Source: Sphingobium sp. (GTDB taxonomy: Bacteria > Pseudomonadota > Alphaproteobacteria > Sphingomonadales > Sphingomonadaceae). From it: DNA of 18,464 nt. Below the pieces are notes generated by a model that was given only the letters and a program-made list of their open reading frames with translations, was not told where the DNA came from and searched no databases. A program made the position numbers and the translations under genes. Shown piece after piece: positions 3,452-18,464 of this stretch; within the stretch, counting starts at the first letter, position 1, and the number at the start of each line of letters is the position of its first letter. The stretch is from the NCBI GenBank assembly GCA_030148625.1, contig JASBTC010000172.1, forward strand, positions 1 through 18,464. The letters are read 5' to 3'.

Positions 3452-3457
3452 TTCCGT

Positions 3458-3463: not shown

Positions 3464-3584
3464 CTGCCCGTTCACGTCCACCCCTCTCCACTTCCCTTCC
3501 ATCGGCCCGCTTGCATCGCCATCCCATTGGGGACAGCCGCCATATCCGGTTCAACCGCCGCAATTCGCGGGCTCTGATCCGACT

Positions 3585-3748: not shown

Positions 3749-4468
3749 ATGACAATCGAACCGGACCGGGGACTCGTTTATTCCAGCGCGGCCATTCACG
3801 AGCGCCGCCGCCGCATCCTCGAAGAGACGCGCAAGATGATCGCCGAGCGGGGGCTTTCGGGCTTCAGCATGGACGAGATCTGCAAGCGCTCCGGCGTCGC
3901 GAAGCGCACCCTCTACAATGCGTTCCAGACCAAGGAGCGCATGGTCGCGATCGCGATCCACGAATATTTCGAACGCTTCATCTCGCGCCTGCCCTATACG
4001 GGCCCGCAAGGCACGATGAAGCGCAACATCGAGCGGATGGTGTTCGTGATCGAGCGCAACCGCCAGATCCGCAACTATATCAGCGCGATCATGTCGCTCT
4101 ATTTCGCGCCCAATGCCGATCCCGACATCTGGACGACGATGCATTCGATGGCGGTGAAACCCAATCTGCAATGGATCCAGGCGCTGAAGGCCCGCCGCCA
4201 GCTCCAGCCCTGGATCGACGTCGACACGCTGGCCGACGATATCGTGCGCTGCGAATATGCGATCGTGAACGACTGGTGCCAGGGGCGCATCGAGGATGAC
4301 GGCGTGACGCTCCATCTGGTTTCGAGCGTGCTGACGGTGATGGCGGGCGCAACGCGCGGCATGGCGCGCCGCGAGATCGAACAGGCGCTGCAGGATTATC
4401 AGCAATCGGGCCCGCCCGTTTCCGCGCAGCCGGCGATGCGGATCGAGGACGCCGTCGCGCAAGGCTGA
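3749..4468 (+). CDS. TetR/AcrR family transcriptional regulator
   Basis: 239 residues. The N-terminal DNA-binding domain is clear: 'RRRRILEETRKMIAERG' followed by the helix-turn-helix 'FSMDEICKRSGVAKRTLYNAF' (residues 39-59) and 'TKERMVAIAI'. The C-terminal helical ligand-binding part is not recognisable to a subfamily. The ATG at 3749 is the only reasonable start; AGGA lies about a dozen bases upstream, so translation may be weak. The gene is divergent from the acyl-CoA dehydrogenase operon and in line with the hydratase-family and flavin-reductase genes. The simplest inference is that it controls both sides in response to an acyl-CoA or related intermediate. Confidence 0.9.
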   Translation: MTIEPDRGLVYSSAAIHERRRRILEETRKMIAERGLSGFSMDEICKRSGVAKRTLYNAFQTKERMVAIAIHEYFERFISRLPYTGPQGTMKRNIERMVFVIERNRQIRNYISAIMSLYFAPNADPDIWTTMHSMAVKPNLQWIQALKARRQLQPWIDVDTLADDIVRCEYAIVNDWCQGRIEDDGVTLHLVSSVLTVMAGATRGMARREIEQALQDYQQSGPPVSAQPAMRIEDAVAQG

Positions 4469-4574: not shown

Positions 4575-5375
4575 ATGACGAATTCACACCCATCGGACGG
4601 CGCCGTCACGCCGAAACTCCTGGCCGAACGCCGCGATGGCGACGTGGTTCTCGTCACACTCGACCGGCCCGAGGCGAAGAACGCCGTTTCGTTCGAAATG
4701 TGGCGCGCCTTTGCCGAATTGCTCGATTCGCTCGACCATGAGACGCCGGCGCGCGCGCTGGTGATCCACGGCGCCGACGGCTTTTTCTCGGTCGGCGGCG
4801 ACCTGAAGATCCCGCCGGCGCGTGGTGAAGGTGCGCTGGCGCTCGCGACACGGCTCGAATGGGGCCAGCGCGTGATCGCCCGGCTGCGACGACTGCCGAT
4901 CCCGGTGATCGCCGCGGTCGAAGGCGGCGCCTATGGCGTGGGCTGGGGCCTGGTTCTGGCCTGCGACATGGTCTTCGCATCGTCGAGTGCGCAGTTCGGC
5001 GCGCCGTTCGTCGATTTCGGACTGGTGCCCGATGGCGGATCGGCCTGGTTCCTGACCCGACAGCTCGGCCGGCACCGCGCCGCGGATCTGCTTTTCTCCG
5101 GACGAACGGTCGACGCGGCGGAAGCGCTTGCGCTGGGGCTCGTCAGCCGGCTGCACGATCCCGGCACCGTCACCGATGCGGCGCTGACCTTTGCCGCGAC
5201 GATCGGCAAGGGCAATCGCCACGCCGTCGAACTCACCAAAAGGCTGCTCCAGACCGCCAGCGGCAGCGACCTGGACGCGGCGCATGCGTTGGAACTCGCT
5301 TATTGCGCGATCCTGCAGGATGGCGACGAACTGGCACGGGCGCGCGAAGCCTTTGCCAAGCGCCCAAAGGCCTAG
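4575..5375 (+). CDS. Enoyl-CoA hydratase/isomerase family (crotonase) protein, isomerase-like active site
   Basis: 266 residues from the ATG at 4575. The frame can be extended to a TTG at 4527, but that adds a charged, non-conserved leader; GAGG lies about nine bases before 4575. The crotonase fold is clear: 'LVTLDRPEAKNAVS' (26-39), the oxyanion-hole segment 'GADGFFSVGGDL' (67-77), 'VEGGAYGVGWGLVLACD' (115-131) and 'GLVPDGGSAWFL' (149-160). Both glutamates of classical hydratases are replaced: Val127 at the rat Glu144 site and Phe145 at the Glu164 site. Asp153 stands where dienoyl-CoA isomerase and PaaG-type isomerases keep an Asp. It is therefore more likely a double-bond isomerase or other crotonase activity than a hydratase. 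It is followed after three bases by the flavin reductase gene. Confidence 0.85.
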   Translation: MTNSHPSDGAVTPKLLAERRDGDVVLVTLDRPEAKNAVSFEMWRAFAELLDSLDHETPARALVIHGADGFFSVGGDLKIPPARGEGALALATRLEWGQRVIARLRRLPIPVIAAVEGGAYGVGWGLVLACDMVFASSSAQFGAPFVDFGLVPDGGSAWFLTRQLGRHRAADLLFSGRTVDAAEALALGLVSRLHDPGTVTDAALTFAATIGKGNRHAVELTKRLLQTASGSDLDAAHALELAYCAILQDGDELARAREAFAKRPKA

Positions 5376-5378
5376 CGC

Positions 5379-6017
5379 GTGGAACTCGACATGCGCAGCC
5401 TGCCGCTCGCGGCACGCTACAAGATCCTCAATTCCACGGTGACGCCACGCCCGATCGCCTGGATCACATCATTGTCGGAAAGCGGCGTGCTCAACGCGGC
5501 GCCCTACAGCTTCTTCAACGCGGTCGGCGACGATCCGCCGATGCTGGTGCACGGGCTGCTCAAGCATCATGTCCATAAGGGCCTGAAGAACACGGCGTCG
5601 AACATCGTCGCTACGCACGAATATGTCGTCAATCTGGTGTGCGAGGACGATGCCGAACGCATGGTGCTGACCAGCGTCGATGCGCCCGACGAGGTCAGCG
5701 AGATCGACTATGCCGGGATCGAGACAGTGCCGTCGACCGCGGTAAAACCGCCACGGATCGCGAGCAGCCCGGTCAGCTTCGAATGCCGCCTGGTGCAGGT
5801 GATCGACTTTCCGCGGCAATCGGTGGTGCTGGGCGAGATACTGGTGACGCACATCAAGGACGAATTCGTGCTCGATCCCGTCAAACTCTATCTGGACACG
5901 CCGGCGATGAAGCTAATCGGACGCACGCATGGCAGCGGCTGGTATGTCCGCAATTCGGACCGGATGCAGATCGACCGGCTGGATTATGATCCGGATTGGA
6001 TGGCGAAGGGCGGCTGA
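5379..6017 (+). CDS. Flavin reductase family protein (FMN-binding split barrel, DIM6/NTAB type)
   Basis: 212 residues. The FMN-binding split-barrel signature is near the N-terminus: 'TPRPIAWITSLSESG' (about 22-36) followed by 'NAAPYSFFNAVGDDPPML' (38-55). The rest has the family's 'NIVATHEYVVNLV' and 'SFECRLVQVIDFP' strands. Such proteins are NAD(P)H:flavin reductases that feed two-component monooxygenases, or flavoredoxins. No monooxygenase partner is in the window. The start is GTG at 5379, three bases after the previous stop, with AAAGG eight bases upstream; the ATG at 5391 is an alternative. It ends the rightward TetR-crotonase-reductase unit. The family is also structurally related to F420-binding FDORs, but the sequence looks like the flavin branch. 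Confidence 0.85.
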   Translation: MELDMRSLPLAARYKILNSTVTPRPIAWITSLSESGVLNAAPYSFFNAVGDDPPMLVHGLLKHHVHKGLKNTASNIVATHEYVVNLVCEDDAERMVLTSVDAPDEVSEIDYAGIETVPSTAVKPPRIASSPVSFECRLVQVIDFPRQSVVLGEILVTHIKDEFVLDPVKLYLDTPAMKLIGRTHGSGWYVRNSDRMQIDRLDYDPDWMAKGG

Positions 6018-6190: not shown

Positions 6191-7234
6191 TCAACCCCGC
6201 CAGTGCGGCAGCGGCAAGCCCGGCGTGTCCACCCGCAGTTTCCACAATTTCCCGTTGCGCATCGACGCGATGTAAAGCTCGCGCAGGTCCGGGCCACCAA
6301 AGGCGAGGCCGGTCGGCATCTGGATCTTCGCCGATCCGGCATCGACGATCACGTCGATCACTTGCCCCCGGGGGGTGATCGCGACGATGCGGTTGGCGAA
6401 GGGAATGGTCGCCCAGAGATTGCCCGCAGCGTCGAAGGCGATGCCGTCGGGATGGCCGAGCCGGACGCGCTCGGCGGGCGGCATCGCAACGATCGTGCTG
6501 GCCTGGAGATTGTCGGGCGCCTCGCCGAGTTGCGGGCCCCAGATGACGGGATCGCCATAGCCCCCGTCGCGGCCGCGGGTGAGCCGGACGATATTGCCGG
6601 CCGCGGTCTGCGCGACGTAAAGATGGCTGAAATCGGCATCGAAGCAGCAGCCATTGGCGCCGCGAATACCCTCATGCACCATCTCCACCCGGCCCGCCGG
6701 ATCGACGCGATAGACGAAGCCCGCCGGGTTGGTCGTGCCGATATTGGTGGGATCGGACCAGGTGGAATGGGTGCAATAGACCGATCCATCCTGGCCGAGC
6801 GCCGGGCCGTTCGAGGCGACGAGGGGGCGTCCGCCAATCTCCGCGGCGATGGTCTCGATCGCGCCGCTCTCCAGATCCAGCAGCTGGAGCGTGCCGGGCA
6901 AATTCTTGAGCAGCCCGAAATTGGCGATGATCATCCGCCCCTGACGATCGAGCGCGATGCCATTGGCAGCCGGCGCGACACCGATCGGGCGCCTTGCACC
7001 GCCCGGCGCGATCTCGATCACCGCGGCGGCGGCGGAAGAAACATAAGCGCGGCCGTCCCGCGCCAGCGCGACGCTTTCGGGGCGTTCGATCCCGTCGGCC
7101 ACCAGTTCCAGCGCCTCCAGCGACATCGGTCGCGGCGATACGCCGCCAGCAAAGTCGGAACGCGAGCACGCAGCGAGCGTGGCCGTCGCCAGCAGCGAGC
7201 CGAGCATCGTCCGGCGCGGAATCGGTGGCATCAT
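6191..7234 (-). CDS. SMP-30/gluconolactonase-like beta-propeller protein, Tat-type lipoprotein
   Basis: 347 residues. The N-terminus 'PIPRRTMLGSLLATATLAAC' has a twin arginine (7-8), a hydrophobic stretch and a lipobox ending at Cys23. This predicts Tat export and lipid anchoring facing the periplasm. The mature part has repeated propeller strands: 'GIERPESVALARDGRAYVS', 'PNGIALDRQGRMIIANF', 'NGCCFDADFSHLYVAQ' and 'HPDGIAFDAAGNLWA'. The Glu, Asn and Asp residues fit metal ligands of the SMP-30/gluconolactonase superfamily, whose members hydrolyse lactones. Strictosidine-synthase-like propellers are the alternative. It is the last gene of the long leftward operon and overlaps the preceding gene's stop; the start may be 7234 (ATGA overlap) or the next ATG at 7231. 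A periplasmic lactonase role is an inference. Confidence 0.82.
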   Translation of the reverse strand: MMPPIPRRTMLGSLLATATLAACSRSDFAGGVSPRPMSLEALELVADGIERPESVALARDGRAYVSSAAAAVIEIAPGGARRPIGVAPAANGIALDRQGRMIIANFGLLKNLPGTLQLLDLESGAIETIAAEIGGRPLVASNGPALGQDGSVYCTHSTWSDPTNIGTTNPAGFVYRVDPAGRVEMVHEGIRGANGCCFDADFSHLYVAQTAAGNIVRLTRGRDGGYGDPVIWGPQLGEAPDNLQASTIVAMPPAERVRLGHPDGIAFDAAGNLWATIPFANRIVAITPRGQVIDVIVDAGSAKIQMPTGLAFGGPDLRELYIASMRNGKLWKLRVDTPGLPLPHWRG

Positions 7235-9291
7235 GGCGTGGAGAATCCCTTGCCCGCTGCCACCAGCCGTTCGAGCAGCGGCGCGGGTCGGAATTCCTCG
7301 CCATGTTCGGCATGGAGGGCGCGGAGCCGGTCGAGGATCTTTGGCAACCCCTCCAGTTCCGCCCAGAACATCGGCCCGCCGCGATAGGCGGGCCAGCCAT
7401 AGCCGGTGATCCAGACGGCATCGATGTCGGACGCGCGTGCCGCGATGCCCTCGTCGAGGATCTTCGCGCCTTCATTGACCATCGAATAGAGACAGCGTTC
7501 GACGATCTCCTGGTCGGAGACCGAACGACGGACAATGCCCTGCCGTGCCGCGAAATCGAGGATCACTGTCTCGGCCACGGGGGACGGCGTGCCTTTGCGC
7601 GCCGCGTCATAATCATAATAGCCGGCGTCGGTCTTCTGGCCGCGCCGGCCCATTTCGTTGAGAATCTCGCGCACGGTGGACGACGAAGACGTCTCGGGAT
7701 TCCAGCCCACATCCATGCCCGCCATGTCACGCATCTGGAACGGCCCCATCGGGAAACCGAAATCGTGGAGCACACGATCGACGTCCCAGGGCAAGGCGCC
7801 TTCCAGGATCAGCTTTTCCGCCTCGCGCTGGCGCTGCGCGAGCATGCGATTCCCGACGAAACCGAAGCAATTGCCGACGACCACGCCGACCTTGCCGATG
7901 CGTTTAGCGACCTGCATCGCCGTCGCGATCGCATCGGCACTGGTCTCGCGGCCGCGCACGATCTCGAGCAAACGCATGACGTTCGCCGGCGAGAAGAAAT
8001 GCAGGCCAATGACGTCGGCGGGGCGCGCCGTCGCGGCCGCGATTTCATCGAGATCGAGATAGGAGGTGTTCGACGCAAGGATCGCCCCCTGCTTCGCAAT
8101 CGCATCGAGCCGCGCGAACAGCGCGGTCTTGATGTCCATCTGTTCGAACACCGCCTCGATGATCAGGTCGCAATCGGCGAGGTCGGCCAGGTCGAGCGAC
8201 GGTGTGAGCAACGCCATGCGACCCGCGACATCTTCGGGCTTCAGCTTTCCCTTGCTCGCGCTGACATCATAGTTGCGGCGGATCACCCCAAGGCCGCGAT
8301 CGAGCGCGTCCTGCGCGGTCTCGACGATCGTCACCGGCAGGCCGGCATTGAGGAAATTCATCGCGATGCCGCCGCCCATCGTGCCCGCGCCGATCACGCC
8401 GACCCTGGCGACCGCCCGCACCGGCGTATCGGCATCGATGCCCGGCACCTTGGCGGCCTGGCGTTCGGCGAAGAAGACGTGCCGCTGCGCGGCGGATTGC
8501 GAACCGGCAAGCAGCCCCTCGAACAAACGGCGTTCCTTGCGCTTGCCGGCATCGAAATCCATGGAGACGGCCGCCTCGATGCAGCGGATGATCGCCTCGG
8601 GCGCATCGAAGCCGCGAAACTTGCGGGCATTGGCCTTGCGGAACGTGGCGAAGACCCCGGGATCGGCTTCGAGCGGAAGATCGCGGATCCGCCGCAACGG
8701 TCGCGCTTCGGCGACGACGGTCCTGGCCAATGCGATCGCGCCCGCGCGTAATCCGCCTTCATCGGCGAGCGCGTCGATCAGGCCGGTGTCGTGCGCCTCC
8801 CGCGCGGGAACCTGCCGGCCGCTGGTGATGATCTCGAGCGCCGCCTCGACGCCGACGATGCGCGGCAATCGCTGCGTACCGCCCGCACCCGGCAGCAGGC
8901 CGAGCTTCACTTCGGGCAGCCCGAGTTTGGCCGACGGCACAGCGATGCGATAATGTGCGACCAGCGCCAGTTCGAGCCCGCCGCCCAATGCCGTGCCGTG
9001 GAGTGCCGCGATCACGGGCTTCGACGCCGCTTCGACGACAGACTGCAACTCGACGAGAGTCGGGCTGACCGGCGGCTTGCCGAATTCGGTGATGTCGGCG
9101 CCGGCGAAGAAAGTGCGGCCTGCGCAGATCAGCACGATCGCGGTCACGTCCGGATCCGCGACCGCGCGTTCCACGCCATCACGAATGCCCGTGCGCACTT
9201 TTGCCGAGAGCGCGTTGACCGGCGGGGAATCGATCGTGACGACGGCAATGCCGTCTTCGAGCGCGTAATCGGTCACATCGTTCAACGTCAT
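7231..9291 (-). CDS. Bifunctional enoyl-CoA hydratase / 3-hydroxyacyl-CoA dehydrogenase (FadB/FadJ or peroxisomal MFE-1 type)
   Basis: 686 residues. The crotonase domain (about 1-180) has the oxyanion-hole segment 'CAGRTFFAGADITEF' and both hydratase glutamates, Glu107 in 'GGGLELAL' and Glu127 in 'LPEVKLGLLPGAGGTQRL'. The NAD-binding dehydrogenase domain begins near 295 with 'VGVIGAGTMGGGIA' and has the catalytic His431-Glu443 pair ('HFFSPANVMRLLE'). The C-terminal dehydrogenase domains follow from about 475 ('NCFGFVGNRML'). It should hydrate trans-2-enoyl-CoA and oxidise the (S)-3-hydroxyacyl-CoA to 3-ketoacyl-CoA in the cytoplasm. Its start overlaps the quinohaemoprotein stop by four bases (ATGA). 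No thiolase follows. In this operon it would process what the ACAD-type enzyme releases. Confidence 0.93.
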   Translation of the reverse strand: MTLNDVTDYALEDGIAVVTIDSPPVNALSAKVRTGIRDGVERAVADPDVTAIVLICAGRTFFAGADITEFGKPPVSPTLVELQSVVEAASKPVIAALHGTALGGGLELALVAHYRIAVPSAKLGLPEVKLGLLPGAGGTQRLPRIVGVEAALEIITSGRQVPAREAHDTGLIDALADEGGLRAGAIALARTVVAEARPLRRIRDLPLEADPGVFATFRKANARKFRGFDAPEAIIRCIEAAVSMDFDAGKRKERRLFEGLLAGSQSAAQRHVFFAERQAAKVPGIDADTPVRAVARVGVIGAGTMGGGIAMNFLNAGLPVTIVETAQDALDRGLGVIRRNYDVSASKGKLKPEDVAGRMALLTPSLDLADLADCDLIIEAVFEQMDIKTALFARLDAIAKQGAILASNTSYLDLDEIAAATARPADVIGLHFFSPANVMRLLEIVRGRETSADAIATAMQVAKRIGKVGVVVGNCFGFVGNRMLAQRQREAEKLILEGALPWDVDRVLHDFGFPMGPFQMRDMAGMDVGWNPETSSSSTVREILNEMGRRGQKTDAGYYDYDAARKGTPSPVAETVILDFAARQGIVRRSVSDQEIVERCLYSMVNEGAKILDEGIAARASDIDAVWITGYGWPAYRGGPMFWAELEGLPKILDRLRALHAEHGEEFRPAPLLERLVAAGKGFSTP

Positions 9292-11378
9292 CTGATTCCC
9301 TCTGATGCTCCGGTGGGGGCGGCTTGCGACGACGCCTTGCCGCTGATCGCGGCGCGTGCCTCGCTGCGGATGAAATGGCGCATGGTGTCGAGATCGGCCG
9401 GCGAGAATTCGGCGAATTTCGGCATGCCGTTGGGAACGAGCGCCCCCTCACTGACAACCGCGGCGAAGCTCCCGGCGTCGAGCGGCACTGGTGAGCTACG
9501 CAGATCGGGTGCCGCGCCGCCGGCCTTGAGGCCCGCGCCGTGGCACAGGCCGCAATGCGCGCCGACGAGCGCGCGGCCGCGCTCGACCTTGGCCGGATCG
9601 AGCTTGAAGGCGGGATCGTCCTGGAACGGCAGGCGCGTCATATCGGCGGCGGGCAGCTTCGCCTTGCCGCCCAGCGCGAAGGTGAGCACGCGGCGCTTCT
9701 GCTGGCGATAGTCCCAGCCGAGCCCCGGCCCCATTTCGGTGCTGGCCCGCCAGCTGGCGATCACGCTCACATATTGGACGCCGTCGACCTCATAGCTGAT
9801 CGGATGGGCGAGGATGCCGTTCTGTGCATCGAACGACCAGATCTTCCGGCCGGTCTTTGCGTCATAGGCCGCGAACTCGCCCTTCACATTGCCCTGGAAG
9901 ACGAGGTTGCCGGCGGTCGCCATCGTCCCGCCATTCTTGAAACCGGGAAGCGGGATCGACCAGGCCGGCTTCTGCTTCACCGGATCCCAGGCGAGCAGCG
10001 TGTTCGTGTTGCCGGGTTCGACCTTGCTGCCCGGCGGCGGCGCGCCGACGCCGTTGTTGATCACCTGGCCCGGCGCGAATTTCCACTGGCTGAGATCGCC
10101 GGGCGGATCGGCATAGATGCGCCCCTGTTCGATCGCATTGATATAGACGAGCCCGGTGTTCGGGCTGAACGCCATCGCCTCCACGCTGTGCGCGCCGACC
10201 GGCGAGGGAAAGACGGTGAAGGGCTTGCCGCCCGGATAGCGTGCCGCCGGATTCTCGACCGGGCGGCCGGTCTTGATATCGATGCGGTCGGCCCAGGTGA
10301 CGGTCTTCACGAATTTCTCGGCCGAGAGCAGCTTTCCGGTCTCGCGATCGATCACGTAGAAAAAGCCGTTCTTGGGCGCGTGCAGGATCACCGGCCGCGT
10401 CTTGCCGTCGATCGGCAGGTCCGCCAGCGTGATGTCCATCGCAGCGTTGTAGTCCCAAGTCTCGCCGGGATTGATCTGATAGTGCCAGACATATTTGCCG
10501 GTATCGGCGTCGAGCGCGACGATCGAGCAGACGAACAGATTGTCACCGCCGCCGGGGCTGCGGATCTTCTGGTTCCACGGCGTGCCGTTGCCCGTGCCGA
10601 TATAGATGCGGTTGAACTTGGGATCGAAGGTGATCGCGTTCCATGCGGTGCCACCGCCGCCATATTTCCACCACTCGCCCGTCCAGGTCTTGGCGGCCAT
10701 CGCCTGGGTCTCGTCCTCGAAGCCCTTCGCCGGATCGCCGGGCACGGTGTAGAAACGCCAGAGCTGCTTGCCCGTCTTCGCGTCATACGCCGTCACATAG
10801 CCGCGCACCGGGGCGAAATCGCCGCCACCATGGCCGATGATGACCTTGCCGTTGAAGAAGGTCGGCGGGCCAGAGATGTAGCGGCCGTCGTTCGCTTCGA
10901 TCGTCATCGCCGACCAGAGCGGCTTGCCGGTCTTCGCATCGAGCGCGATCAGCCGGCCATCGACGGTGCCCGTGTAGATGCGGCCGTCGCCATAGGCGAT
11001 GCCGCGAATGCCCCAGGCCGAGCGCAGCTTCTCGCCCGCCTTTTGCGGTGCTTCGGGATCGTAGCGCCAGAGCTCCGTGCCGCTTTTCGCATCGAGCGCA
11101 TGGACGATGCTGTGGCCGGCCGCGAAATAGTAGACGCCGTCGACCGCGATCGGCGCGGTCTGCGCGCTCGGCATCACATCGATGTCGTGAAACCAGGCGA
11201 GGCCGAGCTGTCCGACATTGCCGGCATCGATCTGCGTCAGCGGGCTGAAATGGCGTTCGGTATGATCGCCGCCATAGCCGGGCCAGTTCCTGCCGTCGCC
11301 GCCATTGTCAGCGGAATATCCGCTGCATGCCGCGATCAGCAACAGGCCGCACAGGGCCGCCAATCCACGCAGACCCAT
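9288..11378 (-). CDS. PQQ-dependent quinohaemoprotein alcohol dehydrogenase with C-terminal cytochrome c, lipoprotein
   Basis: 696 residues from the preferred start at 11378. A lipobox signal peptide ends at Cys18 ('GLLLIAAC'), followed by an eight-bladed PQQ propeller with the tryptophan-docking repeats 'ALDAKSGTELWRYDPE', 'ALDAKTGKPLW', 'AYDAKTGKQLWRFYTVPGDP' and 'AYDAKTGRKIW'. The catalytic region 'PGETWDYNAAMDI' is present. A cytochrome c domain has CGLCH at 609-613 and a likely Met652 axial ligand ('PNGMPKF'). Type II enzymes of this kind oxidise primary or secondary alcohols and pass electrons to the respiratory chain. Oddities: the vicinal Cys-Cys typical of the family is absent ('WGIRGIAYGDG'), and the calcium-ligand Glu site reads 'GHGGGDFAPVRGY'. 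The residue two after the catalytic Asp is Asn, not the Asp of lanthanide enzymes. Confidence 0.9.
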   Translation of the reverse strand: MGLRGLAALCGLLLIAACSGYSADNGGDGRNWPGYGGDHTERHFSPLTQIDAGNVGQLGLAWFHDIDVMPSAQTAPIAVDGVYYFAAGHSIVHALDAKSGTELWRYDPEAPQKAGEKLRSAWGIRGIAYGDGRIYTGTVDGRLIALDAKTGKPLWSAMTIEANDGRYISGPPTFFNGKVIIGHGGGDFAPVRGYVTAYDAKTGKQLWRFYTVPGDPAKGFEDETQAMAAKTWTGEWWKYGGGGTAWNAITFDPKFNRIYIGTGNGTPWNQKIRSPGGGDNLFVCSIVALDADTGKYVWHYQINPGETWDYNAAMDITLADLPIDGKTRPVILHAPKNGFFYVIDRETGKLLSAEKFVKTVTWADRIDIKTGRPVENPAARYPGGKPFTVFPSPVGAHSVEAMAFSPNTGLVYINAIEQGRIYADPPGDLSQWKFAPGQVINNGVGAPPPGSKVEPGNTNTLLAWDPVKQKPAWSIPLPGFKNGGTMATAGNLVFQGNVKGEFAAYDAKTGRKIWSFDAQNGILAHPISYEVDGVQYVSVIASWRASTEMGPGLGWDYRQQKRRVLTFALGGKAKLPAADMTRLPFQDDPAFKLDPAKVERGRALVGAHCGLCHGAGLKAGGAAPDLRSSPVPLDAGSFAAVVSEGALVPNGMPKFAEFSPADLDTMRHFIRSEARAAISGKASSQAAPTGASEGIR

Positions 11379-11383
11379 CGCCT

Positions 11384-12931
11384 TCATCCTCCTATCGTCC
11401 GGCCGGTCGGCCAGAAGCGCTGCTTGAGCGCGCGCTTGTTGACCTTGCCCATCGCGTTGCGACCGATATCGTCGACGAATTCATAGGAGCGCGGGCATTT
11501 ATAGCCGGCGATCCGTTCGCGGCAGAAAGCGTTGAGCGCCTCCGGCGTCGGCGGCGAGGCTGGATCGGCGGCAATGACGAGCGCCTTGGCTTCCTCCCCC
11601 ATTTCCGCATTGGGCGCGCCGATCACCGCGACGTCGGCGACGCCGGGATGCTGGAGCAGCACATGCTCGGCTTCGGCCGGATAGATATTGACCCCGCCCG
11701 AGACGATCATGTCGGAGATGCGATCGGTGATGAAGACATAGCCTTCATCGTCGACATAACCCATCTCGCCGAGGGTGAAGACGCCGGGGGAGACATGCGC
11801 CGCCGCCGTCTTCTCCGCATCATTGTGATAGACGATGCCGCGCCCGGTGGTGTCGCGGAAGAAGAGCTGGCCGACTTCGCCGGTGCCGAGCTCGCTGCCG
11901 TCCTCGCCCAGGATCACCGCCTCGAAGGGGGAAACCGCCTTGCCGACCGAACCCGGTTTCCGCAGCCATTCGGGCGAGGTGATCATCGTCGTGGTGCCGG
12001 ATTCGGTGCCGCCATAGGCCTCGACCAGCACCGGCCCGAACCAGTCGATCATGCGCTGCTTCACGTCGCGCGGGCAGGCCGCGCCGGTATGCGCCAGCCG
12101 CTTCATCGACGAGAGGTCGTAACGCGCGCGGATATCGTCGGGCAGCGACAGCAGCCGCTGGAAATGCGTCGGCACCATCACGCAGCCGGCGATGGCTTCG
12201 CGTTCGATCGTCGCGAGCACGGTCTGGGGATCGAAATGCTCGACCGTCACCAGCGGCGTGCCGCCGATCACCGCGCGGACCGAAGTGAGCGGGCCGGTGT
12301 GATAAAGCGGCCCCACCGCCATCGACGGACCATCGGGCAGCGCGGCAGCGCGCGCGCGCATGATTTGCGCATAGTCCGCGATGGTCTCGGCCGGCGGAAA
12401 ATAGCTGGGCGGCGTGTCGGTGCCCTTGGGCTTGCCCGTGGTGCCCGAGGTATAGTGGAGATGCGGTGCGGGCGTCATGTCGCTTGGCGGCTCGGCATCG
12501 GAGGCAGCGGCCAGCCAGTCATCCCAGCCCATCACGCCTTCACGCGATGGAGACCGCCAGGCGATCACCGTCGAGACCCCCGCCTCGCGCGCGGCCTCGA
12601 TCGCCTTGTCGAGCGTTTCGGGGCCACAGAACAGCGCGCTCGCCTGAGAGTCGGAGAGGATATAGGCAAGCTCGCCTGCGGTCAGATGGAAGCTTGCGGG
12701 CACGGTCGAGATGCCGCCGAGCAGGCCCGCGACATAAGCGATCACGGGTTCGGCGGCGTTGGGCGCGAACACCGCGACGCGGCGTACGCGATCGAAGGGC
12801 AGCGCCAGCATCGCATTGACCGCGCGGTTCATCACCGCATCCAGTTCCGCCCAGTTCAGGCGCATCCGCTCGTCGGCAAGGGCGAGCCGGTCGCGCCGTT
12901 CGGCGCTCATGTCATGGATCAACAGCGACAT
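11384..12931 (-). CDS. AMP-dependent acyl-CoA synthetase/ligase (fatty-acyl or 4-coumarate-CoA ligase type)
   Basis: 515 residues. The adenylate-forming signatures are in order: P-loop 'YTSGTTGKPKG' (160-170), 'YGGTE' (306-310), the ATP/ribose motif 'GYVDDEGYVFITDR' (391-404), the hinge region 'SDMIVSGGVNIYPAE' and the C-terminal catalytic lysine in 'NAMGKVNK' (Lys496). The enzyme should activate a carboxylic acid to its CoA thioester through an acyl-AMP, in the cytoplasm. The frame is open far upstream to 13237, but that extension lies inside the transporter gene. The ATG at 12931 overlaps the transporter stop (TGATG) and begins a normal N-terminus. Next to a transporter and ahead of CoA-dependent enzymes, it probably activates the imported acid. 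It occupies the position of LvaE in the P. putida levulinate pathway by analogy. Confidence 0.92.
   Translation of the reverse strand: MSLLIHDMSAERRDRLALADERMRLNWAELDAVMNRAVNAMLALPFDRVRRVAVFAPNAAEPVIAYVAGLLGGISTVPASFHLTAGELAYILSDSQASALFCGPETLDKAIEAAREAGVSTVIAWRSPSREGVMGWDDWLAAASDAEPPSDMTPAPHLHYTSGTTGKPKGTDTPPSYFPPAETIADYAQIMRARAAALPDGPSMAVGPLYHTGPLTSVRAVIGGTPLVTVEHFDPQTVLATIEREAIAGCVMVPTHFQRLLSLPDDIRARYDLSSMKRLAHTGAACPRDVKQRMIDWFGPVLVEAYGGTESGTTTMITSPEWLRKPGSVGKAVSPFEAVILGEDGSELGTGEVGQLFFRDTTGRGIVYHNDAEKTAAAHVSPGVFTLGEMGYVDDEGYVFITDRISDMIVSGGVNIYPAEAEHVLLQHPGVADVAVIGAPNAEMGEEAKALVIAADPASPPTPEALNAFCRERIAGYKCPRSYEFVDDIGRNAMGKVNKRALKQRFWPTGRTIGG
11388..11393 (-). promoter_or_regulatory. Shine-Dalgarno deciding the quinohaemoprotein dehydrogenase start
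   Basis: AGGAGG on the minus strand touches the ATG at 11387 with no spacer, but lies nine bases before the in-frame ATG at 11378. The latter is therefore the better start, and the ligase stop codon (11386-11384) falls between the motif and the start. Confidence 0.65.
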
Positions 12932-14277
12932 CAGCCCCGGCCCTCCGCGCGTTCGATTGCCGGCCCGAGATAAAGCAGCGCCATCCGCATCGTCAGGAAC
13001 GCGATTCCGTAGCAGCCGACGACGACGATCATCATCGACGTGCCGATCCGCGCATCCGACGCGAAGACGAAGGTGGTCAGCGCGCCGACCAGCGCCGGAC
13101 CGGCGCCCAGGCCGAGCATGGTGAAACAGAACAGAAAGCCCGCGATCAGCTTGCCGCGCACCCGATTGGGCGCAAGCAGCGAAACCACCGACGATGCGTA
13201 GACCATGAACGGCACGGTCGCGAACTGCACGACGCAATAACAGGCCAGGAAGATATAGGGGCTGCCGGTGATGAACAGCATCACAGCGGCAGGCGCGATG
13301 ACGAGCAGCAGCCAGGAATAGACGCGCAGATGCGCATCCTTCATCCCCCGCTTGGCGAAGAAATGATCGACCACCGCGCCGGTGACGAGCAGCGATGCGC
13401 CGCCGATCAGGTTCAATATGCTGACGGGAAGGCCATATTGCAGTGGCGTCCAGCCGAATGCGCGCGTCAGATAGGTCGGCACCCAGTTGGTGAGCGTGTA
13501 GCCGCAGATCGCGAGCGACGAGAAGCTGAGCAGCATCAGCACCATCAATGCCCGGTGGGTGCGGAGGAATTCGCCGAGCAGCGCCCAGTCGGACTGGGCC
13601 GCCATCTGGGCGGCGGTCGCCGGATTGCGGCGGGCGGGTTCGCGGAAGGTGAAGAGCAGCAGCGCAAGAATGAAACCGGGCAGGCCGACCATCGCGAAGA
13701 CGATCTGCCAGGGTTCGGCATAGCCGAGCAAAGGCAGGTTGGTGCCGTGCAACGTCGCGGCATAGGCGATGGCGATGCCGCCGAGCGCGAAGGCGGCGGC
13801 GGATCCGGCCTTGCCCCCCATCTGGAAAGTCGAGGTCGCGAGCGTCAGCCGCTCACGCGGGAATTCGTCGGCAAGCAGCGAATAGGCGGCGGGCAACAAG
13901 GCCGCTTCACCGATGCCGACACAGATCCGTGCGATCAGCAGATGGGCAAAGCTGTCCGCCATGCCCGATGCGACCGTCGCCGTCGCCCAGAGCAGCACGC
14001 CGCCCAGGATGATCCAGCGCCGGGTGAAGCGATCGACCGCCCAGCCGAGCGGCAGGCCGAATATCGAATAGGCGATGGCAAAAGCGGTTCCGGTGAGCAG
14101 CCCGATCTGGAAGTCGCTGACGCCCAGATCGGCCTTGATCGGGATCACCAGCATGCTGATGATCAGCCGGTCGAGCCAGGAGAAGACGTAGAGCGTGAAC
14201 AGCACCGCGACCATCCACCAGCTGCGGAAGGGCACAGCGATGTTCGGGGCTGTCGCGGTCGGTTGCTCGGTCGCCAT
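12931..14277 (-). CDS. Major facilitator superfamily transporter
   Basis: 448 residues with about twelve hydrophobic segments, the first near 22-46 ('VAVLFTLYVFSWLDRLIIS'). The MFS motif A 'GWAVDRFTRR' is at 78-87, and 'RICVGIGEAALLPAAYSLLADEFP' follows. The overall pattern resembles the spinster-type and hydroxy/carboxylate transporters common in sphingomonads. It lies in the inner membrane and probably takes up an organic acid, since the next gene is an acyl-CoA ligase. The frame can be read from a TTG at 14280, but the ATG at 14277 has a GGAGGAG element at good spacing. It begins 23 nt after the ACAD stop. The substrate cannot be read from the sequence. Confidence 0.9.
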   Translation of the reverse strand: MATEQPTATAPNIAVPFRSWWMVAVLFTLYVFSWLDRLIISMLVIPIKADLGVSDFQIGLLTGTAFAIAYSIFGLPLGWAVDRFTRRWIILGGVLLWATATVASGMADSFAHLLIARICVGIGEAALLPAAYSLLADEFPRERLTLATSTFQMGGKAGSAAAFALGGIAIAYAATLHGTNLPLLGYAEPWQIVFAMVGLPGFILALLLFTFREPARRNPATAAQMAAQSDWALLGEFLRTHRALMVLMLLSFSSLAICGYTLTNWVPTYLTRAFGWTPLQYGLPVSILNLIGGASLLVTGAVVDHFFAKRGMKDAHLRVYSWLLLVIAPAAVMLFITGSPYIFLACYCVVQFATVPFMVYASSVVSLLAPNRVRGKLIAGFLFCFTMLGLGAGPALVGALTTFVFASDARIGTSMMIVVVGCYGIAFLTMRMALLYLGPAIERAEGRG

Positions 14278-14300
14278 CAACTCTCTCCTCCCCCGCCCGC

Positions 14301-15527
14301 TCAGCGCAACGGCCGGCTCGAATATTCGGCGACCTTCATCTTGCCGAGCTGCGCCATGTGCACTTCCTCGGGTCCGTCGGTCAGGCGCACGAAACGATTG
14401 ACCAGGAAGAGCTGGGCGATCGGCGTGTCGCCGCTGACCCCCATCGCGCCATGCGCCTGGAGCGCGCGATCACCGACGGTCTGCGCCATGGTCGGCGCGA
14501 CGATCTTGATCGCGGCGATCAGATCCTTGGCGACCTTGTTGCCATAGCGGTCCATCGCGTCTGCAGCCTTCAACGTCAGCAGCCGCGCCTGTTCGATCTC
14601 GCAGAAGGAACGCGCGATATCCTGGCGGATGCTGCTCTGTTCGGAGAGCTTGCGGCCGAATGCGACGCGGCTTTCGACACGATGCGCCATATATTCGAGC
14701 ATGCGCTGCGCCTGTCCGATCGAGCGCATGCAATGATGGATGCGGCCGGGCCCAAGCCGGCCCTGCGCGATCTCGAAACCGCGGCCTTCGCCGAGCAACA
14801 GATTCTCCCTGGGCACGCGGACGTCGTTGAAGCGCAGTTCGGCATGGCCGCCCGGCGAATGAACGGTGCCGAACACGCTCAAGGGGCGCACCACTTCGAT
14901 GCCCGGCGTGTCGCGCGGGATCAGGATCTGCGAGAAACGCTGGTGGCGTGGCGCATCGTCCGAGGTCTTGCCGAGCAGGATCAGGATCCCGCAGCGCGGA
15001 TCGAGCGCGCCCGAAATCCACCATTTGCGGCCGTTGATCACATAATCGTCGCCATCGGCGCGGATCGTGGTCTCGATATTGGTCGCATCGGACGACGCCA
15101 CCTGCGGCTCGGTCATGACATAGGCGGAGCGGATCTCGCCGGCGAGCAACGGCTTCAACCAACGTTCCTGCTGTTCGGGCGTGCCGTATTTCGCCAGCAC
15201 TTCCATATTGCCGGTGTCGGGCGCGTTGCAGTTGAAGAATTCCGACGCCCAGCTCACCCGGCCCATCGCCTCGGCCAGCGGCGCATATTCGAGATTGGTG
15301 AGGCCGGGGCTCCATGCGCCATATTCGTGCGGCAGGAACAGGTTCCACAGCCCCGCCTCGCGCGCCTTGGCCTTGATCGCATCGGTGCCCGGCCAGACCT
15401 TCCAGAGATTATTCTGGTCGTGGATGAACGCGCTGCGCTCCGCCTCGATCGGATAGACATGTTCGTCCATGAAGCTCTCGACCTGGGCGAGCAGCGCCTT
15501 CACCTTGTCCGAATATTCGAAATTCAT
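14301..15527 (-). CDS. ACAD10/ACAD11-type acyl-CoA dehydrogenase (LvaC-like)
   Basis: 408 residues. Unlike the pair at 1143-3451, this protein has the signatures of the ACAD10/ACAD11 branch: '[15 protein letters not shown]' (138-152), '[13 protein letters not shown]' (165-177), 'RPLSVFG' (214-220), '[23 protein letters not shown]' split over 247-268, and 'DGPEEVH' (384-390). In mammals these domains are fused to an APH-fold kinase; here the kinase is a separate gene two places upstream. Related enzymes remove phosphate from 4-phosphoacyl-CoA during 4-hydroxy acid breakdown. Ordinary acyl-CoA dehydrogenation remains possible. The chosen ATG at 15527 has GGAG seven bases upstream; the longer frame to 15935 runs through the SDR gene. 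It starts 20 nt after the SDR stop. Confidence 0.88.
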
Positions 15528-15547
15528 CTGCGGTCTCCGATTGGGCG

Positions 15548-16282
15548 CTAAAGCGTGAGGCCGCCATCGACGAGGATCGTCTGGCCGGTGACATAGGCGG
15601 CGAGCGGCGAGGCCAGGAACAGGGCGACGCCCGCCATGTCCTCGGTCGTGCCGAACCGGCCGAGCGGCATCTTGGCGAGCGCCTTTTCGCGGCGGTCTGG
15701 ATGATCCATCGTCACCTTGGTGAGCTTGGTCTCGACCAGCGACGGCGCGAGGCCGTTGACGCGGATACCCTCGGGCGCCCAGGCCTGCGCCAGCGTGCGG
15801 GTGAGATTGACCGCCCCCGCCTTCGACGCGGCATAGGCCGGATTGCCGAGCGTCGCGCGGAAACCGGCGACCGAGTTCACCACGACGATACTGCCCTGCG
15901 TCGCCGCCAGCATCGGCTTGAAACGCTCCGAACAATGCATGACGCTGTCGAGGTTGATCGCCATGACCTTGTCCCAGCCGGCGCGCTCGAATTCCTGGCG
16001 GCGATAGAGCACCGCGCCCTGCGAGAGGACGAGGATGTCGAGCCCGTCGAACGGCGCAGGCGCCGCCGCGATCGCATCGGGATCCGAAACGTCGACGCTA
16101 TCGTAACCGAGGCCCGTCAGGTCCGACCCCTCATCGGCGGAATAGTCGGCCGCGCTCGCCCGGGTGCCCCAGACATGGACGTCCGCACCACGCATGCGAA
16201 AGGCGTGCGCGATACCGTTGCCGATCCCGCTCGACCCGCCGACGACCAGGACCGATTTTCCGGTGAAATCGAGCTCGTTCAT
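15548..16282 (-). CDS. Short-chain dehydrogenase/reductase (SDR) family oxidoreductase
   Basis: 244 residues, the usual length for classical SDRs. The nucleotide-binding motif is 'VGGSSGIG' (14-21). The catalytic set is Asn110 ('INLDSV'), Ser137 ('NSVAG'), Tyr150 and Lys154 ('PAYAASKAG'). The C-terminal '[10 protein letters not shown]' is typical. The structural NNAG motif is replaced by 'LSQGA' (86-90), a mild departure. It interconverts a hydroxyl and a keto group with NAD(P)H in the cytoplasm. It lies between the kinase and the ACAD genes, gaps of 18 and 20 nt, as LvaD accompanies LvaA and LvaC in the P. putida levulinate cluster. It may reduce a 4-keto acid or oxidise a hydroxyacyl intermediate; which cannot be told. 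Confidence 0.9.
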
Positions 16283-16300
16283 TCTGTCATTGCCCTTTTG

Positions 16301-17323
16301 TCATGCGATGCGGCGCAGTGCGCGTTCGAACAGGCGGACGGCGCGGTCGTGAAGCTTGTCGCCGGTCTCCTTCGGCGCCTTTCCGGCAGCGGCGCGCGCA
16401 TGGGTGCCTTCGAGGAGGATGCCGAGCTTGTAGCAGGCGAGCACCGCGTACCAGTCGACCGCCGACAGATCGCGCGATGAATTGGCGGCATAGGTGTCGA
16501 CCAGTTCCTGCGCGGTCGGGAAGCCGATCCAGGGTTTGACGCTGACCATCGGCACCGTCTCCACCGGATCGAGCCAGGTCGCGAGCAGCCAGCCCAGGTC
16601 GATCAGCGGATCGCCGATCGTCGCCAATTCCCAGTCGACGATCGCGGCGAGCTCGCCCGAGTCATTCTGGTACATCACATTGGCGAGGTGATAGTCGCCA
16701 TGCATGATGCCCGGCGTGAAATGCTGCGGCCGGTGCGCGTCGAGCCAGGCGGCGACGCGGTCGACTCCGGGCAGGTTTGCCGCACCCGCCCACCCCGCGA
16801 ATTCGCCATAGCTTTCGAGCTGCGCTTTCCAGCGCGCCACTTGCCGCGCAAGATAATTGTCAGGCTTGCCGAAATCGGAGAGGCCGAGCGCGGCATGATC
16901 GAGCGCGCCCAATGCCGCGATCCCGTCGACCAAGGCAATGCCCATGCGGTGCTGGATCTCGGCCGATCCGGCATGGAGCGCCGGCAGCCCCGCCACCGGA
17001 TTGAAGCCGGCGATCGGCTCCATCAGGTAGAATGCCGCGCCGAGCACGCTTTCGTCGCCGCATGCCGCGATCAGGCGCGGATGCGGCACCGCCGTATCGG
17101 CGATCGCGGCGAGCAGACGTGCCTCGCGCCGCATCGTCTCGTTGGAATTGCCGCGCAGATGCTGCGGCGGACGGCGTAGCACATAGGGCCGGCCGGCGCG
17201 TTCGAATCGGATCAGGATGTTCTGCGTACCGCCGGTCAGCGCCTCGACATTCTCGATGGCACCGGCGCCGAGTCGCTCGGCGTCCATCCAGTCGGTCAGC
17301 GCGGAAACGTCGATCTGATCCAC
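16301..17323 (-). CDS. Aminoglycoside phosphotransferase-fold kinase (LvaA-like, ACAD10/11 N-domain-like)
   Basis: 340 residues. The small-lobe beginning 'LTGGTQNILIRFERAGRPYVLRR' is split around 29-51. The Brenner motif 'HGDYHLANV' (208-216, with Asp210 and Asn215) and the metal-binding 'VDWELATIGDPLIDLGW' (Asp230) mark a phosphotransferase of the APH/choline-kinase fold. Bacterial proteins of this sort beside acyl-CoA dehydrogenases correspond to the kinase half of ACAD10/ACAD11 and to LvaA of P. putida, which phosphorylates the 4-hydroxyl of 4-hydroxyacyl-CoA. Drug resistance is unlikely given the operon. The start is GTG at 17323 with GAGG shortly upstream; it heads the eight-gene operon. 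Confidence 0.87.
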   Translation of the reverse strand: MDQIDVSALTDWMDAERLGAGAIENVEALTGGTQNILIRFERAGRPYVLRRPPQHLRGNSNETMRREARLLAAIADTAVPHPRLIAACGDESVLGAAFYLMEPIAGFNPVAGLPALHAGSAEIQHRMGIALVDGIAALGALDHAALGLSDFGKPDNYLARQVARWKAQLESYGEFAGWAGAANLPGVDRVAAWLDAHRPQHFTPGIMHGDYHLANVMYQNDSGELAAIVDWELATIGDPLIDLGWLLATWLDPVETVPMVSVKPWIGFPTAQELVDTYAANSSRDLSAVDWYAVLACYKLGILLEGTHARAAAGKAPKETGDKLHDRAVRLFERALRRIA

Positions 17324-17360
17324 CCTTTCCTCATCCTCTCGCCTGTTCTAATTCATTTGG

Positions 17361-17389
17361 ATAATGCGCTTGACGTGGAGGCTTGGCAA
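17361..17389 (-). promoter_or_regulatory. Candidate sigma-70 promoter of the eight-gene operon
   Basis: Reading the minus strand, TTGCCA (17389-17384) and CATTAT (17366-17361) are separated by 17 bases. The transcript would start near 17354, about 30 bases before the GTG at 17323. It is the only good match in the short divergent gap 17324-17404. Confidence 0.45.
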
Positions 17390-17398
17390 TGAAATTCT
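17370..17398 (+). promoter_or_regulatory. Candidate promoter of the second TetR gene, overlapping the divergent operon promoter
   Basis: TTGACG (17370-17375) and a weak -10, AATTCT (17393-17398), are separated by 17 bases. The predicted transcript start falls at about the ATG (17405), so the mRNA could be leaderless; no Shine-Dalgarno is visible. The elements overlap those of the opposite promoter, so one bound regulator could block both. Confidence 0.3.
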
Positions 17399-17404
17399 GC
17401 ACTC

Positions 17405-18088
17405 ATGGTTAGATTGTCTCCGAAACAGCCTGGCATGGCAGCCGAACATATGAAGCGCGTCGCGCGCCGGCTGTTCGCCGAACGCGGCGTCGACGGCGTG
17501 ACGGTGCGCGATATCGCGGAAGCCGCGGGCCAGCGGAATCACGGCGCAGTCAGCTATCATTTCGGATCGAAGGAAACTCTGGTCCGCGAGATCATCCGCG
17601 ACGGCGCGATCCTGATCGACGAACGGCGCAACGCCGCGCTCGACGCGCGCGAGGCGGATGGCGGCCCGGCGACGATCAGCGAGGTCGTCGACATCCTCGT
17701 CTACACCGCGACCGCGATGGACGAATCGGCGGTGGGCGAGGACAGCTATATCCGCTTCGTCACCATGCTGGGCATGACTCACCGCGAACTGTTCCTGAGC
17801 GCGCTCGAAGGGCGCTGGAACTCGGGCTATCTGCGCTGTCTCGACCATCTGCGCCGGCTGATGCCCGCCGACATGCCGTCCGCGATGAAGAATCAGCGCT
17901 TCGTCTTCATGGGCGCCTATCTCAGCAGCATCCTCTCGCTGCGCGAAGCGGCACTGACCGACACGAGCCGCGCGCACCCGATCTGGCAGTCGGAGCAGAC
18001 ATTGCGGCATTTTGCGAGCACTCTGACCGCGCTGATCGAAGCGCCCGGCGATGAAGAGGCGCGCGGTACCGTGAGAGGGCGAGGATGA
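17405..18088 (+). CDS. TetR/AcrR family transcriptional regulator, coupled to the FO synthase gene
   Basis: 227 residues. The DNA-binding domain has 'MKRVARRLFAERGVDGVTVRDIAEAAG' split over 16-42, then 'HGAVSYHFGSKETLVREII' (46-64), a standard TetR helix-turn-helix. The C-terminal domain has no mark I can assign, but the length is normal. The start at 17405 lacks a ribosome binding site, as does the alternative ATG at 17435. It is divergent from the kinase-led operon across an 81-bp gap and probably controls it. Its stop TGA (18086-18088) overlaps the ATG of the FO synthase gene (ATGA), so the regulator and that enzyme are on one transcript. The ligand is unknown. Confidence 0.9.
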   Translation: MVRLSPKQPGMAAEHMKRVARRLFAERGVDGVTVRDIAEAAGQRNHGAVSYHFGSKETLVREIIRDGAILIDERRNAALDAREADGGPATISEVVDILVYTATAMDESAVGEDSYIRFVTMLGMTHRELFLSALEGRWNSGYLRCLDHLRRLMPADMPSAMKNQRFVFMGAYLSSILSLREAALTDTSRAHPIWQSEQTLRHFASTLTALIEAPGDEEARGTVRGRG

Positions 18089-18464
18089 TCGACAGCATTG
18101 CCGCTTCGACTGCAGACGCATCGCTGCGTGCCCATCTGCTCGACACCGATCTCGCCACATTGATGGCCGAGGCGCGCAGCCTGCGCGATGCCGGCCATGG
18201 CCGGTTGCAGAGCTGGTCCCCCAAGGTCTTCATCCCGCTGACCCAGCTTTGCCGCGACCTTTGCCATTATTGCACCTTCTCGCGACCGCCCGAACGCGGC
18301 GCCCGGGCCTATCTGACGCGCGACGAGGTGATCGCGATCGCACGCGCCGGCCAGCAGGCCGGATGCACCGAGGCGCTGTTCACATTGGGCGAGAAGCCCG
18401 AGTTGCGCCACCGGCTGGCACGCGAGGAACTCGACCGGCTGGGCCACGCGACCACCCTCTCCTA
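18085..18464 (+). CDS. fbiC: FO synthase, CofG-type radical SAM domain (FbiC/CofG), N-terminal fragment cut by window edge
   Basis: 126 complete codons are present. The reading frame starts at ATG 18085 and is open at the right edge. The translation has 'SWSPKVFIPLTQLC' leading into the radical SAM cysteines Cys56, Cys60 and Cys63 ('CRDLCHYCTFSRPP'), then 'YLTRDEVIAIARAG' and 'GCTEALFTLGEKPE'. This matches the start of the CofG half of FO synthase (FbiC in actinobacteria), where the cluster binds an [4Fe-4S] centre. CofG with CofH joins a diaminouracil and tyrosine to make FO, the deazaflavin of coenzyme F420 and a photolyase antenna. Whether the CofH half is fused or separate lies beyond the edge, so 'cofG' could be the right symbol. 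Confidence 0.88.
   Translation, partial: MIDSIAASTADASLRAHLLDTDLATLMAEARSLRDAGHGRLQSWSPKVFIPLTQLCRDLCHYCTFSRPPERGARAYLTRDEVIAIARAGQQAGCTEALFTLGEKPELRHRLAREELDRLGHATTLS

Follow-up and report, generated by a model that had tools for sequence, protein, structure and literature searches.

We analysed an 18,464-nucleotide contig of Sphingobium sp. (JASBTC010000172.1, assembly GCA_030148625.1), which we call the window. It carries eight adjacent genes that are predicted to remove a hydroxyl group from an acyl-CoA by phosphorylation and elimination, as the levulinate (Lva) enzymes of Pseudomonas putida and the mammalian ACAD10 and ACAD11 do. These genes lie next to a regulator and a gene for the synthesis of cofactor F420. 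(ACAD is short for acyl-CoA dehydrogenase.) The eight open reading frames (ORFs) are all on the minus strand and are listed here in the order of transcription:

16301..17323, minus strand: APH-fold kinase, predicted to be a 4-hydroxyacyl-CoA kinase (GTG start; Pfam APH, 1.7e-40; PDB matches 9o56, 3dxp and 8v3v)
15548..16282, minus strand: short-chain dehydrogenase (SDR; Pfam adh_short_C2, 2.7e-53), with a putative role in 4-oxo/4-hydroxy interconversion
14301..15527, minus strand: ACAD10/11 (LvaC)-type acyl-CoA dehydrogenase, predicted to eliminate phosphate (match to ACAD11 structure 8v3u, active-site residues and tree)
12931..14277, minus strand: MFS transporter (Pfam MFS_1, 8.9e-44)
11384..12931, minus strand: AMP-forming acyl-CoA ligase (LIG; Pfam AMP-binding, 8.4e-50)
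9288..11387, minus strand: quinohaemoprotein alcohol dehydrogenase, with pyrroloquinoline quinone (PQQ) and cytochrome c (1kv9, 634 bits; TIGR03075, 546 bits, cut-off 480)
7231..9291, minus strand: FadJ-like enoyl-CoA hydratase/3-hydroxyacyl-CoA dehydrogenase (HAD; Pfam ECH_1 and 3HCDH_N)
6191..7234, minus strand: SMP-30/gluconolactonase-like protein, with a lipobox-like LAAC at residue 20 (Pfam SGL, 1.9e-28)

The kinase and SDR genes are 18 nucleotides (nt) apart, the SDR and ACAD genes 20 nt, and the ACAD and MFS genes 23 nt. The MFS and ligase genes then overlap by 1 nt (the ligase ATG is at 12931), and the next three junctions overlap by 4, 4, and 4 nt. Pfam searches backed a family assignment for each of the eight proteins, and we consider all eight ORFs to be real genes because homologues (about 41-83% identical) recur in the same order in other genomes. 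This agrees with the original prediction, made from the sequence without database searches, which had described eight genes on one strand with this order and spacing. It had also reported that no small gene like lvaB is visible, which fits the short gaps on either side of the SDR gene.

An ACAD11-type dehydrogenase and its kinase

We assign the window dehydrogenase to the ACAD10/11 (LvaC-type) group on the basis of its sequence. Among PDB chains, it matches ACAD11 (8v3u) with 410 bits, and the next chain that is not ACAD11-like scores 139 bits; its identity to mouse ACAD11 is 51% across 378 aligned residues. PMC12440821 names R626, H634, and R637 of mouse ACAD11 (phosphate recognition) and the catalytic D753. 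With a numbering offset of 1, derived from the D753 mutant chain, these four residues align with R257, H265, R268, and D384 of the window protein, and all are conserved. The position aligned to P463 of human ACAD11 (by an offset between human and mouse that we inferred) is serine in the window protein and in most bacterial rows. In a tree of 70 rows, which includes mouse ACAD11 and 4hr3 as long rows and does not include LvaC, the window protein falls in a clade of 15 rows with support of 100/98. Besides the window, this clade holds proteins from the cluster and near-variant loci described below and from locus L110 of G209, which has the kinase-SDR-ACAD11 triad without the PQQ block. The clade sits inside the group that contains ACAD11, distant from ordinary ACADs. 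The original identification of the enzyme as ACAD10/11-type is thus borne out by bit scores, active-site residues, and tree. Such a gene alone is unremarkable, because 139 of 244 genomes of the order to which G306 belongs have one (E ≤ 1e-110).

The kinase appears to be the APH-fold partner of this enzyme, with intact catalytic residues and a predicted activity. Its D210 and N215 align with the catalytic D220 and N225 of mouse ACAD11, and its R160 with R176, which contacts CoA; no single residue of the window kinase could be matched to R86, which is also named in PMC12440821. Over 286 aligned residues, it is 28% identical to the kinase part of mouse ACAD11. A scan of a sample of 298 genomes from the family returned 28 kinase loci in 24 genomes. 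An ACAD11-type gene lies beside the kinase in 23 of these 28 loci (there is none in L084, L096, or L102, and L091 and L097 are cut short), and an SDR gene lies between the two in 18. The domain calls for APH and ACAD are generic, and they would also fit an ordinary beta-oxidation operon with an unrelated, resistance-like kinase. The recurrent pairing, the ACAD11-specific residues, and the tree all argue against this explanation, and we consider it very improbable.

In a kinase tree of 68 rows, built with a quick method that left 23 of 65 inner branches open and without LvaA among its rows, 43 window-type kinases form their own group. A long branch separates them from the other 25 rows, which include 3dxp, 9o56, and the ACAD11 kinase. 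The original prediction named a position outside the LvaA/LvaC and ACAD10/11 clades as a ground for refutation; by our trees, this applies to the kinase but not to the ACAD, which lies within the ACAD11 group.

The operon belongs to a larger locus in relatives

We identified the cluster in 14 genomes (G001-G010, G209, G220, G304, and G520). The order APH-SDR-ACAD11-MFS-LIG-PQQ-HAD is found in seven of these (G001, G002, G003, G004, G008, G520, and G209, the last with an inserted receptor gene and a second PQQ gene). This seven-gene order is common to sphingomonads and G520, whose order was sampled via a Pseudomonadales record. Some of the other clusters are incomplete or rearranged: G304 has no SDR, ACAD11, ligase, or HAD gene at the locus; G006, G010, and G220 have no HAD gene there; in G005, G006, and G007, the MFS gene is not at its usual place; in G009, about 28 kb of a single contig separates the two parts of the cluster; and in G010, the parts are on two contigs. 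We also distinguished three near variants. G164 and G093 have the genes from kinase to ligase, followed by TetR-ECH-FLR (ECH is an enoyl-CoA hydratase/isomerase and FLR is flavin-reductase-like), with the PQQ gene elsewhere. The contig of G214 stops after the SDR gene, and this genome was placed here by its kinase and a neighbouring thiolase. Finally, 15 genomes have a close kinase without the cluster. The kinase-SDR-ACAD11 triad is present in 12 of them (G011, G013, G032, G104, G106, G110, G120, G171, G232, G260, G388, and G490); in G167, the contig stops after the SDR gene, and in G261 and in the better copy of G289, there is no ACAD11 gene beside the kinase.

A scan with the PQQ protein gave 97 confirmed loci, of which 80 were kept, and 8 of the 80 have the triad together with the PQQ gene (L002, L003, L004, L005, L008, L012, L014, and L062). 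Seven of the 14 cluster genomes (G001, G002, G003, G005, G008, G010, and G220) have an SMP-30 gene at the locus by an E-value threshold of 1e-20.

Several relatives add genes for an aldolase-like thiolase (LTP), a ChsH2-like OB-fold protein, a SnoaL-like protein, an LLM protein, and tandem CoA-transferases. A TonB receptor gene is in the locus in L109, and L212 (and, by eye, L210) has genes of the xanthine-dehydrogenase/aldehyde-oxidase type, which resemble molybdenum enzymes and score below the NCBIfam cut-offs. Searches of the window with the relatives' proteins as queries found no LTP, OB-fold, SnoaL, LLM, tandem CoA-transferase, or other thiolase (THL) gene. Because tblastn with THL and LTP found no thiolase in the window and because the operon of relatives is part of a larger cluster, the "complete gamma-lactone route" of the original prediction was too strong.

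The PQQ dehydrogenase and the SMP-30 protein

The PQQ protein has a PQQ propeller and a C-terminal cytochrome c domain (Pfam, TIGR03075, and the match to 1kv9), as do the type II quinohaemoprotein alcohol dehydrogenases 1kv9, 1yiq, and 1kb0. A pair of vicinal cysteines is typical of these enzymes. Relative to the three structures, the window protein keeps the Asn and Asp positions, which we take to be active-site residues (the Asp catalytic); in contrast, its vicinal cysteine pair is replaced, and it has Asp instead of Glu at what is presumably a metal-ligand position of 1kv9. The cysteine pair is also missing in 65 of 97 homologous stretches, and none of the 32 stretches with the pair exceeds 47.2% identity to the window protein. 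The change to Asp is shared by the cluster homologues and also by some homologues that have the cysteine pair. These alignments indicate that the quinohaemoprotein alcohol dehydrogenases include a subfamily without the vicinal cysteine pair, to which the window protein belongs.

The N-terminus of the PQQ dehydrogenase has a lipobox-like IAAC at residue 18, much as the SMP-30 protein has LAAC, and the PQQ dehydrogenase may therefore be membrane-anchored. Seven loci (L004, L008, L012, L063, L074, L109, and L112) have at least two PQQ dehydrogenase genes each. Two records from metagenome-assembled genomes (MAGs) titled Klebsiella pneumoniae (L023 and L025) have PQQ genes that resemble those of environmental gammaproteobacterial MAGs, and these titles look wrong.

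The SMP-30 protein looks like a lactonase, with a predicted activity. Its model (predicted local distance difference test score, or pLDDT, of 85) is nearest to the structure of the beta-propeller lactonase RPA3624, at 23% identity. Residues E53, N142, N194, and D263 are invariant in 8 sequences, including the window's; these would correspond to E21, N120, N175, and D229, which were mutated in DFPase, as matched by order and fold rather than by superposed coordinates.

The original prediction saw the SMP-30 protein as the lactone-opening part of a periplasmic front end, beside the PQQ enzyme. On this view, the operon would suffice by itself to degrade simple gamma-lactones and 4-hydroxy acids with a straight chain. 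The conserved putative metal site and the RPA3624-like model speak for a lactonase, and the ligase, kinase, ACAD11, and HAD families that such a route would use are all present. However, the SMP-30 gene is absent from the locus in half of the cluster genomes, and the window has no detectable thiolase by the searches above. Furthermore, LTP with its OB-fold partner, tandem CoA-transferases, and paired ACADs recur in the relatives; a straight chain would not need them, and together with the genes resembling molybdenum enzymes they fit a bulkier substrate better. We think that a simple gamma-lactone route is rather improbable and that the substrate is probably bulky or alicyclic.

A shared promoter region with an operator-like site

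The kinase gene is divergent from a TetR-family gene, TetR2, which is followed by the start of FbiC:

17324..17404, between divergent genes: 81-nt intergenic region between kinase and TetR2 (from the coordinates)
17349..17367, minus strand: operator-like site GCATTATCCAAATGAATTA, overlapping a -10-like CATTAT (promoter read by eye)
17405..18088, plus strand: TetR2, TetR-family regulator (58% identity over 207 residues to TetR2 of L003)
18085..18462, plus strand: start of FbiC (CofGH, F420 biosynthesis), cut by the window end (NF006687, 1.2e-42; TIGR03550, 5.7e-30)

Both FbiC scores are under the cut-offs because the gene is incomplete at the window end. The last 4 nt of TetR2 are also the first 4 nt of FbiC. 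The linkage of TetR2 and FbiC to the kinase operon is new here and was not part of the original prediction.

The heptamer TTATCCA is present in 21 of 22 distinct TetR2-kinase intergenic rows, all taken from loci where TetR2 was found; the exception is L101. Nine intergenic rows, from loci without the cluster, have the perfect palindrome TTATCCANNTGGATAA. In the window, GCATTATCCAAATGAATTA is the sole match at up to 3 mismatches to a pattern that was drawn partly from GCATTATCCAAATGAATTA itself (0.02 matches expected; one was present in 4 of 200 shuffles). When 12 genomes were scanned with a stricter pattern, 9 of them yielded a total of 11 sites and G220, G110, and G011 yielded none; a control pattern gave no matches. 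Nine of the 11 sites are at the kinase promoter, as expected because the pattern was drawn from such sites, so the result is the scarcity of sites elsewhere. Of the two extra sites, the one in G520 is upstream of an ECH-FLR operon, and the one in G009 adjoins a CitE-like gene and a thiolase gene. Both are consistent with a single regulon that would include beta-oxidation genes absent from the operon.

Genetic linkage to F420 synthesis

The catabolic locus is genetically tied to F420. Of the 14 cluster genomes, 10 have FbiC adjacent to the kinase. Three more (G001, G304, and G520) have CofD or Fno there instead, and in G004 no F420 gene was seen in this position. In G520, which is outside the alphaproteobacteria, Fno adjoins the TetR2 beside the kinase. 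F420 genes of the relatives pass curated cut-offs for CofC (L141), CofD (L003), CofE (L109), and Fno (L062).

CofG is present in 18 of the 34 genomes that we examined: in 17 of 17 with the cluster or a near variant and in 0 of 15 with a close kinase and no cluster. (G102, which has CofG, and G103, which does not, are outside this count and were counted as "other" in the tests that follow.) In the family sample, CofG is present in 44 of 298 genomes (42 over the cut-off), and a close kinase in 24, of which 9 have the cluster or near variant and 15 are other. CofG was found in 9 of 9 versus 1 of 15 of these groups (p = 7.6e-6, Fisher's exact test) and in 6 of 6 strict cluster genomes versus 4 of 18 (p = 0.0016), with groups that were drawn after the CofG distribution was seen and tests that ignore shared ancestry, which inflates significance.

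We considered two LLM proteins as users of F420. The conserved LLM protein is nearer to FMN luciferases in the PDB, and its NCBIfam scores are nearly tied (89 bits for an FMN-type family and 83 for an F420-type family). A second one, LLM2, passes the F420-type cut-off; besides G209, a close relative (66%) is found only in G520 among the 34 genomes, with weaker relatives in G102 (48%) and G004 (44%). These results lend no support to the first as the F420 enzyme, and the second is not general. At L141:12527-13486 and L212:2646-3548, an LLM protein above a curated F420-family cut-off adjoins a thiolase in G209 and G520.

Proposed pathway

On balance, we favour the view that these eight genes form the core of a conserved catabolic locus of proteobacteria that extends beyond them, uses ACAD11-type hydroxyl removal, is controlled by TetR2, and is co-expressed with F420 synthesis. 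In the periplasm, the PQQ-cytochrome c alcohol dehydrogenase would oxidise an alcohol group, which may belong to a 1,4-diol, in the direction of an acid or lactone; the SMP-30 protein, where present, would open the lactone; and the MFS protein would import the acid. The ligase would then form a 4-hydroxyacyl-CoA, with the SDR setting the 4-oxo/4-hydroxy state or the stereochemistry. The kinase would phosphorylate the 4-hydroxyl, and the ACAD11-type flavoenzyme would remove the phosphate to give a 2-enoyl-CoA, which the FadJ-like enzyme could hydrate and oxidise. Thiolysis or retro-aldol cleavage would follow, by enzymes encoded beyond the window. TetR2 probably controls the operon via the promoter site, and co-expression with F420 biosynthesis is likewise probable.

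Several observations weigh against this proposal. Four of the 14 cluster genomes (G005, G006, G007, and G220) have no detectable TetR2 beside the kinase; the other 10 have one. FbiC is not adjacent in G001, G004, G304, or G520, and SMP-30 is missing at half of the loci. We found no F420-dependent enzyme that the cluster genomes have in common. Outside the cluster group are 35 of the 44 family genomes with CofG (a close kinase is missing from 34 of them, and the one in G102 is 49% identical), and F420 therefore has other uses. The grouping and shared ancestry noted for the CofG tests count here as well. Finally, the kinase is outside the clade of the ACAD11 and 3dxp kinases, and its substrate may therefore differ.

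The F420 linkage could be nothing but an inherited neighbourhood, with the catabolic operon working as we describe and neither needing nor driving F420 synthesis. The lack of a shared F420-dependent enzyme, the four clusters without adjacent FbiC (including G004, with no F420 gene beside the kinase), and the absence of the cluster from most of the sampled CofG genomes all fit this explanation. On the other hand, the kinase and TetR2 genes share an 81-nt promoter region, TetR2 overlaps FbiC, Fno is beside the kinase even in G520, and CofG divides the examined genomes 17/17 to 0/15. We lean slightly against the explanation and regard it as a serious contender.

A different kind of objection concerns the position of the hydroxyl. 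The substrate might be a polycyclic or isoprenoid acyl-CoA on which the kinase targets another one, such as a 5-hydroxyl or a ring hydroxyl, and to which the ACAD11-type enzyme is adapted. The long branch of the window-type kinases would fit, and LTP, the ChsH2-like OB fold, and the paired ACADs resemble the clusters for steroid or terpenoid side chains. Yet the ACAD retains the residues that are proposed to bind 4-phosphoacyl-CoA, and LvaA and ACAD10/11 are reported to act on 4-hydroxyacyl-CoAs (PMC12440821 and PMC11342911). We consider another hydroxyl to be unlikely.

A more ambitious form of the proposal with TetR2 and F420 is that these proteobacteria make F420 for, and co-regulate it with, a periplasm-initiated pathway that removes a 4-hydroxyl by phosphorylation and elimination, with the distinct kinase clade and the PQQ subfamily without the cysteine pair both adapted to a bulky substrate. 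This is speculative, and we would not yet bet on it. According to a 2021 review (PMC8498797), why Proteobacteria synthesise F420 is an unanswered question. The linkage may help to explain F420 synthesis in some of them, and an operon with the same promoter region and putative TetR operator as fbiC offers a direct test of its role. If the proposal is true, then F420 gains a concrete physiological role in Proteobacteria, and the chemistry of ACAD10/11 and LvaC reaches a further setting that has a kinase clade of its own.

Comparison with known systems

The locus resembles the lva operon of P. putida (LvaABCDE) in having a kinase, an ACAD, an SDR, and a ligase together and in its predicted 4-phosphoacyl-CoA chemistry. 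It differs in lacking an LvaB-sized gene between kinase, SDR, and ACAD and in adding the MFS, PQQ dehydrogenase, FadJ-like, and SMP-30 genes. We found no clear case of the order kinase-small gene-ACAD-SDR-ligase in the loci from the ACAD search of 244 genomes or in two sets of 10 and 20 further regions, and the comparison with Lva therefore rests on published descriptions (PMC12440821 and PMC11342911) and not on LvaA or LvaC sequences. With mammalian ACAD10 and ACAD11, the window ACAD shares the four named active-site residues, but here the kinase and ACAD are separate proteins and the kinase is in another clade. We found no description of this gene combination in the titles and abstracts of open-access articles in PMC. 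Our best reading of the sequences is that the operon is a new variant of the Lva/ACAD11 module within a larger catabolic locus.

A plasmid cluster of Novosphingobium capsulatum (NZ_CP140001) also has kinase, ACAD, two SDR, HAD, ligase, further ACAD, MaoC, thiolase, and quinone-oxidoreductase-like genes in one run; it differs in that no PQQ dehydrogenase is among the annotated genes shown (in an incomplete gene table) and that a P450 gene is nearby. Plasmid pJE1 of Sphingomonas sp. JE1 (L205) has SDR-kinase-ACAD-SDR with carboxylase, MaoC, thiolase, and OB-fold genes, which is a similar module in another catabolic setting. In PLSDB, a stretch that matches the ACAD11-type gene is labelled as vanG/Van ligase in Sulfitobacter plasmids (NZ_CP081118, AP027374, and NZ_CP049346), which looks like an annotation artefact.

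Other genes in the window

Six further genes were assigned in the window:

103..1107, minus strand: RED, NADPH-dependent alkenal/curcumin-reductase-like (NF058644, 326 bits, below cut-off; adjoins ACADs in L074 and L175)
1143..2282, minus strand: ACADs, PimD-like acyl-CoA dehydrogenase (TIGR03203, 237 bits, below cut-off)
2294..3502, minus strand: ACADl, PimC-like acyl-CoA dehydrogenase (TIGR03204, 261 bits, below cut-off)
3749..4468, plus strand: TetR1, TetR-family regulator (NCBIfam TetR-family matches, all below cut-off)
4575..5375, plus strand: ECH, enoyl-CoA hydratase/isomerase (NCBIfam crotonase families, below cut-off)
5379..6017, plus strand: FLR, flavin-reductase-like (Pfam Flavin_Reduct, 1e-20; PDB 4z85 and 1eje)

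We considered a two-component Baeyer-Villiger role for LLM and FLR and set it aside, as the window has no LLM gene by searches with the relatives' LLM. The TetR1-ECH-FLR block is also found repeatedly in relatives.

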